Below are positions 18,077-23,707 of a stretch of DNA of 64,000 nucleotides, piece after piece. Source of the stretch: Candidatus Neomarinimicrobiota bacterium (GTDB lineage Bacteria > Fidelibacterota > Marinisomatia > SCGC-AAA003-L08 > TS1B11). Every line of letters starts with the position of its first letter. Within the stretch, counting starts at the first letter, position 1. The stretch covers positions 1 through 64,000 of the forward strand of contig JADFSS010000003.1 in assembly GCA_022560655.1 (NCBI GenBank), read 5' to 3'. A model generated the notes under the pieces. That model did not search any database and had not been told where the DNA came from. It saw nothing but the letters and a program-made list of their open reading frames with translations. The translations under genes and the position numbers were made by a program.

Positions 18077-18951
18077 CAACCCAGGACCTGCTGCATGGTC
18101 TGGCCGATCATCGCCGGGCTCTCACACACATGGATGCCCGCGGCCTGCAGGGCCTCCATCTTACTTTGGGCGGTGCCCTGTCCGCCGGCAATGATGGCCC
18201 CGGCGTGTCCCATGCGACGGCCCGGCGGGGCCGTGCGGCCGGCAACAAACGCGACGATGGGCTTGCTGAAGCCGGTCTCCTGCACCCAATCGGCGGCCTC
18301 CTCCTCGGCGCTACCGCCGATCTCGCCAATGAGAACCAGTGCATCCGTCCCGTCATCCTCGGCAAAGAGCTTCAGAAGAGCAAGAAAGGTGGAGCCGATG
18401 ATGGGGTCGCCGCCTACGCCGATGCACGTGGATTGCCCCAGGCCCAGTTCGGTCAACTGGAAGACAGCTTCGTAGGTGAGCGTCCCGCTGCGTGAAAGCA
18501 CACCCACGCCTCCGGGCTGGTGAATAAAGCCGGGCATGATGCCGATCTTGCACCTTCCCGGACTGATGACGCCGGGGCAGTTGGGGCCGATGAGCGTCGT
18601 GCTGCTTTGGTCCAGGGCGGCCTTGACCCGCACCATATCAAAAGTGGGGATGCCTTCAGTGATACAGACCACGAGCTCCAGGTTGGCCGCGATGGCCTCC
18701 ATGATGGCGTCCGAGGCAAAGGGTGGTGGCACAAAGATTACCGAGGCGTTGGCGCCGGTGGCGTCCTTGGCATCGGCCAGCGTATTGAAAATGGGGACGC
18801 CGTTAGCGTCCTGCCGGCCCCCTTTGCCAGGGGTGACGCCGGCCACAACTTGGGTGCCATACGCCACCATCTCCTCGGTATGAAACGAACCCTCACTCCC
18901 GGTGATGCCCTGCACGATGAGCCGGGTGTCGTTGCCTGCCAGTATGCTTAT
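18076..18951 (-). CDS. sucD: Succinyl-CoA synthetase alpha subunit, probable AUA start
   Basis: Alpha subunit of the TCA-cycle enzyme that makes ATP or GTP from succinyl-CoA. CoA-binding [25 protein letters not shown] and the phosphohistidine loop GHAGAI near residue 245 are present. No ATG, GTG or TTG lies where the protein should begin: the canonical M-S-I-L start is written ATA-AGC-ATA-CTG. The ATA at 18951-18949 overlaps the sucC stop as ATAA, six bases after the purine-rich GAAAGGGGG. The next usual start, a GTG at 18915, would remove the first beta strand of the CoA-binding fold. A CTG at 18942 is an alternative. With the ATA start the protein has 291 residues, the normal length. Confidence 0.9.
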
Positions 18952-20117
18952 GCCCGGCCCCCTTTCGCGGCGCCCACGGCCAGCTCGGCCGCCTCCTCCA
19001 AGGTCTGGGCCACCAAGAACTCCAGGGGGGAGTCCGCCAGCAGTTTCCGCGCCTCGGGGGCCTTGGTGCCCTCCATGCGCACGATAATCGGGATGCTGAC
19101 ACTCACCTCGTTCAGGGCATCGATGACGCCCTGCGCAATGCGATCGCAGCGCACAATTCCGCCGAAGATATTGATGAGCACAGCGGTTACTTTTTCATCA
19201 TTCACCAGGATGCGGAAGCCGTTGGCCACGGTCTCGGTATTAGCCACCCCGCCCACATCGAGGAAGTTGGCGGGTTCTCCGCCATGCAGCTTGATGATGT
19301 CCATGGTGGCCATGGCCAGCCCCGCGCCGTTGACCATGCAGCCCACGCTACCATCCAGCCGGATGTAGTTGAGGTGGTACTTGTCGGCCTCCACCTCCTG
19401 GGGGTCCTCCTCACTCAGGTCGCGCAACTCCGGCAGCGCCTTCTGGCGGTATAGGGCGTTGTCGTCAAAGTTGATTTTGGCGTCCAGCGCCATGACCAGG
19501 CCGTCCTCGGTCACAACCAGCGGATTGATCTCCATCAGAGAACAGTCGTTAGCCAAGAACGCGCGCCACAACGCCTGCAGCGTACTGGTGCCGTGCTTCA
19601 CCTGGTCGCCGTCCAGTTTCAGGGCATAGGCCAGCTTCCGGGCCTGGTAGGGCTGCAGCCCCCCGGATGGATCGAGCCACTCCTTGACGATGAGTTCCGG
19701 CGTCTCGGCGGCTACCTTTTCGATTTCCATGCCTCCCTGGGTTGATACCATCATCACAAAGTGGCCACTGGACCGGTCCAGCACAATGCCGGCGTATAGT
19801 TCCCGGGCGATGGGGGTGGCCTTTTCGATGAGCAGACGACGCACCTCCTGACCGCCGGGCCCGGTCTGATGGGTTACCAGCTGCATACCCAGCATTTTTT
19901 CCGCCACCTGGCGTACCTCAGCCGGGCTATCCACTAGCTTGACCCCGCCGCCCTGGCCCCGTCCACCAGCATGAATCTGGGCTTTTACCACCACCCGGCC
20001 ACCAATTTTCTTGGCGGCATCCACGGCCTCAGCCACTGAAAATGCGGGGTAACCCTCAGGAATGGGAACCCCGTATTCGCTGAAGATGGCCTTGGCCTGG
20101 TACTCGTGAATTTTCAT
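18948..20117 (-). CDS. sucC: Succinyl-CoA synthetase beta subunit
   Basis: ATP-grasp beta subunit (389 residues) of succinyl-CoA synthetase. It begins [21 protein letters not shown], has [19 protein letters not shown] near residue 43, the Mg-binding [10 protein letters not shown] near 198 and [10 protein letters not shown] near 322. The ATG at 20117 is preceded by GAATAAGG, placed just after the stop of the upstream ATPase gene. Its TAA stop overlaps the presumed sucD ATA start. Confidence 0.96.
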
Positions 20118-20127
20118 TGCCTTATTC

Positions 20128-22629
20128 CTATGTCCACCGGGCGGACCTCCAAATGTTGACAGGAATAGTCAGTTTGTCTTTCTTTCCTACGCCAGGTTTA
20201 GCTGGGTTTTGAACCATGTGCATGGTAGGGTTCTCAGGTATGGATGAGATGACGCATACGTAATATGTCTCTTGAAATCTATCCGCTGCCTCGGTCTCAT
20301 TCTCCGTTAGTTCAACATCAACATCAGAACTCTTACCTTTGACCTCTATTTGTACCTTCCTGCCATCTTTGGCTACTGCCTCAATGTCATAGCCAAAGTT
20401 TCTCTTATCAACAACTTCCACTTTCTGATATTTGGTTTTCAACGTTCCTTTAGCAAAGCTCATGGCAAACTCCTCTACACCATTATCTGGAGAATCTTTA
20501 ACACCACCAGCCTTGAGGAATTCACGCCAAGTCCTCAATTGGTCAGAATCAGCTTTACCTTTGATGTATCTCGGACTTATGAAACTAAGGCCAGAGACGA
20601 ACTGTTTGTTGGTTTCCCAGTCGTGTTCAGGCTGGAACTCTTTAGGAAATAACACTTCCTTGGATGCCTTCACGGATTTTTGTTTTGTGAGAATCCAAAT
20701 TTCCAATTCCTCGTCTATTTCATTTCCGAGAATTTTCTGGCACAAAATTGTGTAGTCGAGAAGTTCCTTTTGTGAAGGCTTAGGAGCATCGACCAGAATC
20801 TTGGGAAGTATGGCCTCCTTGCAAACTTTCTTTTCATCTAGTACTTGCACCCCCGTTAGGCCGGTCAAGAAACCTCGAACCTCTTTTGATTCATCTTCAT
20901 CAACCGCCCTCGATAGGATATCAGGATGTAGCATGGCTTTGGAACTTTTCAACTTGTTCGCCATCTCCATGAATATGGGGTCTACTAAGATTCTGACCAT
21001 GAGGGAGACATCCCCTCCCCTAAGGAGTTTACCATCGCTTGTTAATATAAAATTATAGTTATGATATGCCATAGTGTTTCTTCTGATTCGTCTATAATAA
21101 GAATAAGGCTCTCCGTAAAACGGGTGACTATTGAGCCAGAGATAGAGTGATCTAAACCAATCACCCGCATCAGGTGTGTTGCTCTTATTTTCTAGGAACT
21201 TTTGGTCATGGAGTATATTCCAACGATCCACCTTCTTGATCGGCTTGGATTCGCAGTCAAGCACCTTGGGATGAACAAACTTAAGTTCTTGTCGTCCACC
21301 GAATGCTGAGGCCATCTCATCTTCCAAGAATAAACCCATATCGACAAGATCATCTATTGCCTCGTCATCCTCTGTCAATCGCACCACCTGTTCGGGTCTG
21401 GCCCACCCGTTATCTTTAGTCGGCACGCAATCATTCTCTTCCAAGAATTTTTCGATAGGTTCTATGAGCTTAGGCCCAAATAACTCATCATATGATTCTA
21501 GCCCCTCAGACTTCTTGAATTCGAACACTGGGAAAAATTGATATTTCCACCTATCATGATTCTTGAAGTACTCTATTGCCTCCTTGCAAAGATCAACCAC
21601 TTCCCCCACCAACCAGTGGTTCCATTTGGTTTCATAGTTAATCGCATCTCTGCCCGGCTGAACGAGGAAGTCTGCCTGAATTGGGAACTTTGCTCCGCTC
21701 CTGGCCTCCCCCAATGGTAAGAAAGAATAAACTCCTCCATACATTGCTCCCGCTTCCGACGGCGCCAAGTTACCCTCCTCATCGAGCGCAAAAGCTATCG
21801 CTACTTCTCTCTTTGTAACATTAGCCCTATAATCTTGTGCTAACCGGTCTTGCTTCACCGAATTTGGCACCTTTACGGTCCGTCGAAAGAATTTGAACTT
21901 CACCTCCTCATTGTCATGCTTGAGGGTAGTGATCCCATCCTCGTCCTCCCCAATATTCTCGAGGGTCCATGATCGCCCAGAAACCTCATCTATTACTACT
22001 ATTTTTCTTAACCAGCGTAGAAATAAATATAGCTCACTACTGAGTTTCTCCAGTTCTCCAACCAAACTTGAATAATACGCTTTTTCCCTGTAGGGAATAA
22101 TGAAAGTTGTCAATTCGGCATCTATTTCCTTGGGTGGGTCATCAACCCAAATCGGTATGACCTGCCACGGATTCTTAGTGGGATCATCCCAGTAATTTTT
22201 ATCGAACTTGAATTGAAATCCGTCGGAACAAATCACGGGACAATCAGAGATTTTGAAAACGGACTTAAACCCAATACCCAAATACCCCAATGTACCCTGT
22301 TCTGGCTTCTTGGAAGACCTGATGCTACAGATGGCGCTTACATCTTGTTTGCTGAAGGGACGTCCATTATGCGAAACTCTTACTCTGTCTTTGTTGACCC
22401 GTATTTCAAATGTCCCTGGACTGTTTAGGCCTAGACCAGCGTCTTCCGCATTCTGAATTAGTTCGAGAACAAAACCCGAGCTTCGAGTAAACACTACCTC
22501 GGATATCAACTTTAACGCGCTCACATTATCCTGCCACGTACGGGTTCCCGTTGAAACCTCTATATCACTCCGTATATCCTCAATTACGTTCTTCCTATTA
22601 ACGTGGTTAGTCGTTGTATCTACCTCCAA
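20128..22629 (-). CDS. Sacsin/NO VEIN-like GHKL ATPase with C-terminal NOV_C (DUF3883) nuclease-like domain
   Basis: An 833-residue protein of unknown role. The N-terminus is a GHKL ATPase of the sacsin/NO VEIN type: ELIQNAEDAG at 56-65, SHNGRPFS at 86-93, GYLGIGFKSVF at 115-125. The middle 500 residues are not recognised. About 715-815 matches the NOV_C domain, with D748 in GYDIEA and E762/K764 in QIEVKGK forming a PD-(D/E)XK-like core. The gene is clearly richer in A and T than its neighbours, so horizontal transfer is likely. It sits between arcC and sucC with only 10 bases before sucC. No ATG or GTG exists at the start: TTG 22629 is assumed, and a GGAGG overlaps it. Similar solitary ATPase-nuclease proteins are suspected of anti-phage defence, which is an inference here. 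Confidence 0.75.
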   Translation of the reverse strand: MEVDTTTNHVNRKNVIEDIRSDIEVSTGTRTWQDNVSALKLISEVVFTRSSGFVLELIQNAEDAGLGLNSPGTFEIRVNKDRVRVSHNGRPFSKQDVSAICSIRSSKKPEQGTLGYLGIGFKSVFKISDCPVICSDGFQFKFDKNYWDDPTKNPWQVIPIWVDDPPKEIDAELTTFIIPYREKAYYSSLVGELEKLSSELYLFLRWLRKIVVIDEVSGRSWTLENIGEDEDGITTLKHDNEEVKFKFFRRTVKVPNSVKQDRLAQDYRANVTKREVAIAFALDEEGNLAPSEAGAMYGGVYSFLPLGEARSGAKFPIQADFLVQPGRDAINYETKWNHWLVGEVVDLCKEAIEYFKNHDRWKYQFFPVFEFKKSEGLESYDELFGPKLIEPIEKFLEENDCVPTKDNGWARPEQVVRLTEDDEAIDDLVDMGLFLEDEMASAFGGRQELKFVHPKVLDCESKPIKKVDRWNILHDQKFLENKSNTPDAGDWFRSLYLWLNSHPFYGEPYSYYRRIRRNTMAYHNYNFILTSDGKLLRGGDVSLMVRILVDPIFMEMANKLKSSKAMLHPDILSRAVDEDESKEVRGFLTGLTGVQVLDEKKVCKEAILPKILVDAPKPSQKELLDYTILCQKILGNEIDEELEIWILTKQKSVKASKEVLFPKEFQPEHDWETNKQFVSGLSFISPRYIKGKADSDQLRTWREFLKAGGVKDSPDNGVEEFAMSFAKGTLKTKYQKVEVVDKRNFGYDIEAVAKDGRKVQIEVKGKSSDVDVELTENETEAADRFQETYYVCVISSIPENPTMHMVQNPAKPGVGKKDKLTIPVNIWRSARWT

Positions 22630-22668
22630 CTCTTCAATTGTTGAAAGCTCTCAATTACAGCTAGCCTC

Positions 22669-23628
22669 TTATCTGACAACGGTCGTTCCCGCCTCACCCG
22701 CTAATGCCTGCTCCATCGATTCGATATTCGTCACCACAACCTTCTCACCGCCGGCCTTGAGGAATTGCATCGCGGCCTCCATTTTGGGCCCCATGCTGCC
22801 ACCGGGGAAGTGGCCTGCATCCAGATAATCCTGCGCCTGATGCAATGACAATTTTCGGATGGGCTGTTGGCGGTCGCTACCAAAATGCAGATAGACCTCC
22901 GGTACATCGGTGAGAATATACATCTCCTGAGCCCCAATATCCTCTGCCAGAACCGCCGCGGTCAAATCCTTGTCAACCACTGCATCCACCCCCTCGTAAT
23001 GGCCATTTTCCATGACGAAGGCGGGGATGCCGCCGCCCCCCGAAGCGATAACGATGGAGCCTAGCTCGACCAAATGACGGATGGAGCGGCCGTTGACCAG
23101 GCGGACGGGTTTCGGGCTGGGCACCACCCGGCGCCAGACCCCCGCTTCCTGTTCGGCGATGGACCAGCCGAAACGCTCAGCCAGGTGTTCAGCCCGCTCT
23201 TGTGAATAGCGGTCGCCGATGAACTTTAGGGGGCGCTTGAGGGCCGGATCAGCCGGGTCTACCACTACCTGGGTGATGATGGTTACCACCTCCCGTGAAA
23301 TCTGTTCATCCATGAGCGCGTTTTGCAGTGATTGCTCGATCATGTAGCCGATAGTCCCCTGGGTGGCGGCTACGCAGAGGCCCAGGGGCAGGGGCGGAAC
23401 CCGATCGGCGGCCAGCTCCCCCCGCAGCAGTTCGTCTCCCACCTGGGGACCGTTACCGTGCACGATTGCCAGGCGGTGACCCCGTCTCAGGAAGGGGAGC
23501 GCCGCGTGCAGGGCGGCCCGGGTCTGGGCGAACTGCTGGGCGATGGTGCCGGTGGTAGCGTCCGGCGCCAAAGCGTTTCCGCCCAAGGCGAGCAGGACCG
23601 TGCTATTGGTAAGCAGTGTTGTGCCCAT
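22669..23628 (-). CDS. arcC: Carbamate kinase
   Basis: Catalyses carbamoyl phosphate + ADP to ATP + carbamate, or the reverse. The ATG at 23628 gives 319 residues and the standard N-terminus VLLALGGNALAP; a TTG at 23673 would add 15 residues of no clear match. Signatures include VHGNGPQVGD, IASGGGGIPAF near residue 200, GVDAVVDKDLTAAVLA and HFPGGSMGPKMEAA near 273. Neither arcA nor argI/arcB is nearby, so the source of carbamoyl phosphate is not visible. It lies 35 bases downstream of the pruA-like gene. Confidence 0.93.
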   Translation of the reverse strand: MGTTLLTNSTVLLALGGNALAPDATTGTIAQQFAQTRAALHAALPFLRRGHRLAIVHGNGPQVGDELLRGELAADRVPPLPLGLCVAATQGTIGYMIEQSLQNALMDEQISREVVTIITQVVVDPADPALKRPLKFIGDRYSQERAEHLAERFGWSIAEQEAGVWRRVVPSPKPVRLVNGRSIRHLVELGSIVIASGGGGIPAFVMENGHYEGVDAVVDKDLTAAVLAEDIGAQEMYILTDVPEVYLHFGSDRQQPIRKLSLHQAQDYLDAGHFPGGSMGPKMEAAMQFLKAGGEKVVVTNIESMEQALAGEAGTTVVR

Positions 23629-23707
23629 GAGAGGTTCGGGCGTGCCACCCAGGGCCAGGCGGGCCGGCTGCAACGCTTAAGATCGCGACGCCAGTTTGTC
23701 CGCGCAC

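Follow-up and report, generated by a model that had tools for sequence, protein, structure and literature searches.

A compact TmtA-like gene, a candidate variant of the Tiamat defence system, inserted between arcC and sucC

The window, the whole stretch of 64,000 nucleotides that was analysed, comes from a draft assembly of 128 contigs. Its minus strand carries an open reading frame (ORF) of 833 aa between arcC and sucC, which begins with a TTG codon at 22629, ends with a stop codon at 20128-20130 and has no internal stops. The original prediction had the coordinates of this ORF right but not the strand, which is minus; a plus-strand reading across 20128-22629 contains many stops. The features of the locus are as follows.

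22669..23673, minus strand: arcC (carbamate kinase), the operon gene upstream of the insert
22630..22668, minus strand: left junction, 39 nt, from the arcC stop to the TTG of the TmtA-like gene
20128..22629, minus strand: compact TmtA-like gene, 833 aa, TTG start; GHKL/sacsin ATPase, middle region and predicted NOV_C nuclease
22195..22494, minus strand: Bergerat-fold ATPase core, residues 46-145, from the profile comparison with the PDB
20560..22194, minus strand: residues 146-690, the remaining sacsin/Hsp90-like module and the middle region (the TmtA model match reaches residue 716)
20131..20559, minus strand: NOV_C (DUF3883) domain, residues 691-833, predicted PD-(D/E)XK fold of Hjc/RecU type
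20473..20475, minus strand: E719 codon, a helix glutamate in a position like that of the helix Glu of Hjc
20386..20388, minus strand: D748 codon, predicted metal-binding Asp, invariant
20344..20346, minus strand: E762 codon, ExK motif, invariant
20338..20340, minus strand: K764 codon, predicted catalytic Lys, invariant
20118..20127, minus strand: right junction, 10 nt, from the TmtA-like stop to the sucC ATG; likely sucC ribosome-binding site (AGGAATAAGG overlaps it)
18948..20117, minus strand: sucC, downstream of the insert; directly after arcC in relatives

The TTG start is supported by the aligned relatives, which begin at about the same position. The protein has a single full-length match in its own genome, where no second NOV_C domain was found besides its own; this match, together with full-length relatives elsewhere that are 52-62% identical, indicates that the ORF is not a product of chance. 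As judged from the comparison with its three closest relatives (pN 0.21-0.31 versus a saturated pS of 0.78-0.87), the gene is under purifying selection. Its GC content is 0.441 and its GC3 0.466, as against 0.592 ± 0.032 and 0.707 ± 0.044 for the window's remaining non-overlapping ORFs that are 150 aa or longer (51 ORFs; z = -4.8 and -5.5, respectively), which makes it the sole strongly deviating gene in the window by composition. The lower GC content ascribed to it before this analysis is thus borne out (44% versus 59 ± 3%).

The gene interrupts a conserved operon. The relatives read (24 loci, to the limit of the contigs) preserve the gene order arcC-sucC-sucD-ndk, and in family relatives with an easily read junction about 12-16 nt separate the arcC stop from the sucC ATG, versus 2551 nt here, which points to the clean insertion of one gene. 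Little besides the ORF has been inserted; the predicted distance of ten bases to the sucC ATG is confirmed at 10 nt exactly, and the ribosome-binding site of sucC seems to have been kept within this junction. None of the 60 relatives searched, ten of them from the same family, encodes the TmtA-like protein, and the lone weak match outside the own genome spans the NOV_C domain only. A search of 245 genomes of the phylum found it absent from the other genomes except for short partial matches. The gene is therefore not one that occupies the arcC-sucC junction with matching composition in all relatives, and a foreign origin at a variable site, as originally proposed, is supported. A chimeric assembly was considered and rejected as unlikely, the conserved operon being intact on both sides of the gene.

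The search for repeats at the ends of the insertion returned short chance-like matches only, with no target duplication; no tRNA was found in the window, and neither an Rfam element nor a mobile-element gene was found at the insertion site. Scanned for promoters and terminators, the site gave counts not clearly above those in shuffled sequences (7 versus 4.3 ± 2.3 and 5 versus 5.7 ± 2.5, respectively), and a private promoter or terminator is not claimed for this reason. It follows that co-transcription of the gene with the arcC-sucCD-ndk operon is probable.

The N-terminal part of the protein shows the features of a sacsin-type GHKL ATPase, including the N-box catalytic Glu and Mg-binding Asn (E56 and N60) and the glycine-rich lid motif (G115/G118/G120). 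The motifs ELIQNAEDAG and GYLGIGFKSVF, on which an ATPase had been proposed, were located at residues 56-64 (ELIQNAEDA) and 115-125, and E56, N60, D63, G115, G118 and G120 are invariant in the 15 relatives aligned. Matches were obtained with Pfam SACS (E 5.7e-11) and the NCBIfam sacsin N-terminal domain (E 5e-22), and the ATPase profile found lizard sacsin 5v47 (E 2.3e-20) and TRAP1/Hsp90 (E about 1e-10) in the PDB. The adenine-binding Asp of the canonical GHKL motif DxGxG is absent; its place is taken by H87 (HNGRPF) here and by H or N in every one of the 15 aligned relatives, and the mode of ATP binding may therefore not be that of canonical GHKL proteins. Sacsin itself likewise has no adenine-binding Asp. 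The region around residue 87 corresponds to positions 22363-22380 of the window, and across the sacsin/NOV_C family this residue is H/N, in contrast to the catalytic Glu, which does not vary. The full-length AlphaFold2 model, made from four sequences, has a mean pLDDT of 49, and no fold claim is therefore taken from it, for the middle region included.

At the C-terminus, Pfam recognises NOV_C at residues 718-804 (E 2.6e-13), with D748, E762 and K764 standing where they had been predicted. In a 2013 paper (PMC3710099), DUF3883 was described as a novel REase domain. All three residues are invariant across two sets of NOV_C domains, one of 14 diverse domains and another of 14 that includes ten further viral sequences, and E719, in the first helix, shows no variation in the four-member close clade or in Halosimplex. 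The NOV_C profile gave no match at E <= 5 with PDB sequences, and the assignment of the fold thus rests on a predicted model of the C-terminal 143 residues, which was made from 14 sequences (pLDDT 84.9, pTM 0.78). Its predicted core is alpha-beta-beta-beta-alpha-beta, as in the PD-(D/E)XK superfamily, and D748, E762 and K764 fall in the model on the right strands for the pattern D...(E)xK, strands 2 and 3. A Foldseek search of the PDB with this model placed Holliday junction resolvases at the top (Hjc 2eo0, E 1.7e-4, probability 1.00), with modest TM-scores to Hjc of 0.5-0.65 (0.57/0.65 for A. fulgidus Hjc 2wcz), followed by RecU, the SPARDA nuclease, the homing enzyme I-Ssp6803I, PvuII and EcoRV. 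The comparison with viral predictions returned RecU/Hjc-like enzymes and one NOV_C protein. The nuclease-like C-terminal fold that had been expected is present in the structure prediction (pLDDT 85) as a putative PD-(D/E)XK core with Hjc/RecU matches. On the alignments and the model, the C-terminal residue pattern is that of an active Hjc-type PD-(D/E)XK nuclease.

The protein was compared with the PADLOC models of TmtA, which we take to be the protein of Tiamat (PDLC03964-PDLC03972, 1063-1782 positions). Nine TmtA models match it, and positions 3-678 of PDLC03972 align with residues 12-716 (E 1.4e-105). By itself, the NOV_C domain matches seven models, in each case at the very C-terminus, with E from 4e-14 to 1e-3, for example at positions 1533-1630 of 1655 in PDLC03966 (E 4e-14) and 1210-1286 of 1302 in PDLC03972 (E 1e-8). 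The central positions of PDLC03972 from about 679 to 1209, about 530 in all, have no counterpart in the 833-aa protein. These matches at both ends indicate that the order in TmtA is ATPase, middle region and NOV_C, and that the window protein is a TmtA minus those central positions. The view of the gene as an undescribed system has to be given up, since the architecture is that of TmtA/Tiamat from end to end. The full TmtA length with its long central region is not reached, so naming the protein Tiamat proper must wait; the term "compact variant of Tiamat" fits its sequence. The name and origin of Tiamat reportedly go back to Millman and co-authors in 2022. In the literature searched, no paper on the mechanism of Tiamat or on the bacterial sacsin-NOV_C combination was found.

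Close full-length relatives were found in two MAGs, one from Phycisphaerae (62% identity in the best segment) and one from Chloroflexi (52%), and on a tailed-phage contig of 59 kb (54%). The window protein and these three relatives form a clade supported at 100/100 in a tree built from 16 ATPase domains; the clade contradicts host taxonomy, which implies transfer. The Chloroflexi copy (L029) lies with a few small ORFs between purE and purB, a tight metabolic operon; in several relatives the purE-purB spacing is about 10-50 nt (L071/L089, L074/L090, L076, L077/L092, L078/L091). Another Chloroflexi relative carries a gene for a 440-aa MFS-type transporter at the purE-purB junction (L088:5335-6915), and the junction thus seems permissive for insertions. 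The Phycisphaerae copy precedes a HAD-type gene of the same orientation by 176 nt. All three chromosomal copies have housekeeping surroundings and are not in defence islands. In a survey of Actinobacteria, Tiamat was almost always chromosomal (PMC10482375).

On the phage contig, two tail genes flank the copy, which is antisense: a distal tail gene (phrog_1302) on one side and phrog_2048 on the other. The phage with compact TmtA possesses terminase, portal, capsid and tape-measure genes as well as homologues of ParA and ParB, and the presence of the latter beside the phage genes suggests a phage-plasmid. A second viral contig, found by DNA-pattern scans of viral contigs, encodes a TmtA of 1264 aa (L095:259-4053; PDLC03972, 1088 bits), antisense and adjoining the terminase gene; a DNA-pattern match in the viral contig L094 was dismissed as chance, as no relative was seen among its ORFs. 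These phage-borne copies suggest a use of Tiamat in competition between phages. The phage with compact TmtA (IMGVR_UViG_3300032770_001058) has further antisense genes among its structural genes. One encodes a 1116-aa helicase (L063:5694-9044), whose match to the PADLOC candidate PDC-M23B spans the full length (E 0) and which matches Hachiman HamB more weakly. A third antisense cargo gene (L033:2628-3503, 291 aa) lies in the tail module of this phage between DUF6950 and tail fibre J-like genes and has no match in PHROGs, Pfam or PADLOC.

Among plasmid relatives, one adjoins qatABCD, one the DUF1156 and DUF499 genes and one a helicase gene. In distant plasmid relatives, a small gene lies directly upstream and abuts or overlaps the ATPase gene (L030:7471-7968, L031:5225-5914, L032:5279-5923); in Sulfuricurvum, next to qatABCD, it encodes a NERD nuclease. 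A two-gene system was considered for the window locus and rejected as unlikely, the small abutting gene being absent here and not seen in the three close relatives.

Taken together, the gene is probably a horizontally acquired compact TmtA (Tiamat), present as a solitary insertion in an operon, whose product would be an ATP-gated nuclease attacking invading DNA in the manner of VcSduA. This reading is favoured by the TmtA match, the carriage on phage and plasmids, the invariant ATPase and nuclease residues and the precedent of VcSduA; the housekeeping surroundings of the chromosomal copies, the replacement of the adenine-binding Asp by H or N and the ~530 missing TmtA positions count against it. 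The one-gene defence originally put forward likewise stands as the most likely candidate role, given the TmtA match and the phage cargo context. The protein would dimerise as other GHKL ATPases do, and the sacsin/Hsp90-like module with the middle region would form a clamp sensing a feature of the invading DNA or a phage product; the Hjc-like fold makes branched replication intermediates a possible target. ATP binding and hydrolysis (E56) would alter the clamp and release or position the nuclease, and the Hjc/RecU-like PD-(D/E)XK nuclease (E719, D748, E762, K764) would then cut phage DNA. In VcSduA of V. cholerae, either the ATPase change E27A or the nuclease change K557A abolishes phage protection (PMC12137116).

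An abortive infection against phage or plasmids, in which the nuclease or the ATPase would kill the host cell or bring it to a halt, and not simply cut the DNA of the invader, seems rather unlikely. It gains from the fact that many single-gene defence systems are abortive. It is also compatible with the survey in which Tiamat is listed among defence systems of unknown mechanism (PMC10482375), but VcSduA, the precedent closest in architecture, gives protection at every multiplicity tested and leaves the host viable (PMC12137116).

There is still less reason to expect a role in DNA processing or repair, with an ATP-dependent branched-DNA nuclease of Hjc/RecU type acting on the host's own recombination intermediates. 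The best fold matches, Holliday junction resolvases, and the three chromosomal copies among housekeeping genes agree with such a role; the sporadic distribution (absence in 60/60 relatives and only short partial matches elsewhere in the phylum search), the end-to-end match to a defence family and the travel on phage and plasmids do not. A chaperone of sacsin type that works on proteins and uses an inactive NOV_C for nucleic-acid binding would suit an ATPase profile nearest to sacsin and Hsp90, but is very improbable, because the complete PD-(D/E)XK catalytic set is invariant and an inactive domain would not need it. A selfish element without a host role, whose nuclease drives the insertion of its own gene like a free-standing homing endonuclease, is hardly credible and was rejected: the single-gene insertions that close against host genes at several sites and the fold match with I-Ssp6803I are outweighed by four close copies at four unrelated sites, where homing gives one conserved site, by a large ATPase module unneeded for homing and by the failure to find target duplication or end repeats.

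Returning to the defence reading, a broader picture can be offered tentatively, and with doubt. There may be a compact branch of Tiamat, a bare gene that spreads across phyla and phages without mobile-element remnants and settles in host operons or in sense upstream of sucC, purB and a HAD gene, and antisense in phage structural operons. The central region of TmtA would then be dispensable, and Tiamat would be a sacsin-type ATPase-gated, Holliday-resolvase-like restriction enzyme. TmtA has a sacsin-type ATPase start and a NOV_C end, and the compact form keeps the residues of a predicted active Hjc-like PD-(D/E)XK nuclease; the mechanism of Tiamat is thus reducible to a direct test by two point changes. 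The 833-aa form is also smaller than the TmtA of 1100-1800 residues for biochemistry and cryo-EM.

Among known systems, Tiamat TmtA is, like the window protein, a single large protein with an N-terminal sacsin/Hsp90-type ATPase and NOV_C at the extreme C-terminus, and its N-terminal 700 residues align with the window protein over their whole length; it differs in size (models of 1063-1782 positions versus 833 aa) and in the extra central ~530 positions. VcSduA, or GHKL-Shedu (paraMORC3, Shedu type I-D), has the same order of GHKL ATPase, middle region and C-terminal PD-(D/E)XK nuclease, but with DUF4263 as the nuclease and with canonical GHKL motifs (I-IV) in the ATPase (PMC12137116). In the window protein, Pfam found no DUF4263, the feature of Shedu type I-D, but NOV_C instead. 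Eukaryotic sacsin and Hsp90/TRAP1 share the ATPase domain family with the window protein, whereas their function is that of a chaperone, and they are not known to carry a NOV_C nuclease. The Hjc/RecU resolvases share the predicted C-terminal fold and arrangement of catalytic residues but are stand-alone enzymes without an ATPase, 11-18% identical to the NOV_C domain. Other DUF3883/NOV_C proteins (SNF2 helicase-DUF3883, HmaA, PD-T4-1 and PDC-S36) end in the same nuclease-like domain and carry an N-terminal helicase or unknown module in place of the GHKL ATPase.
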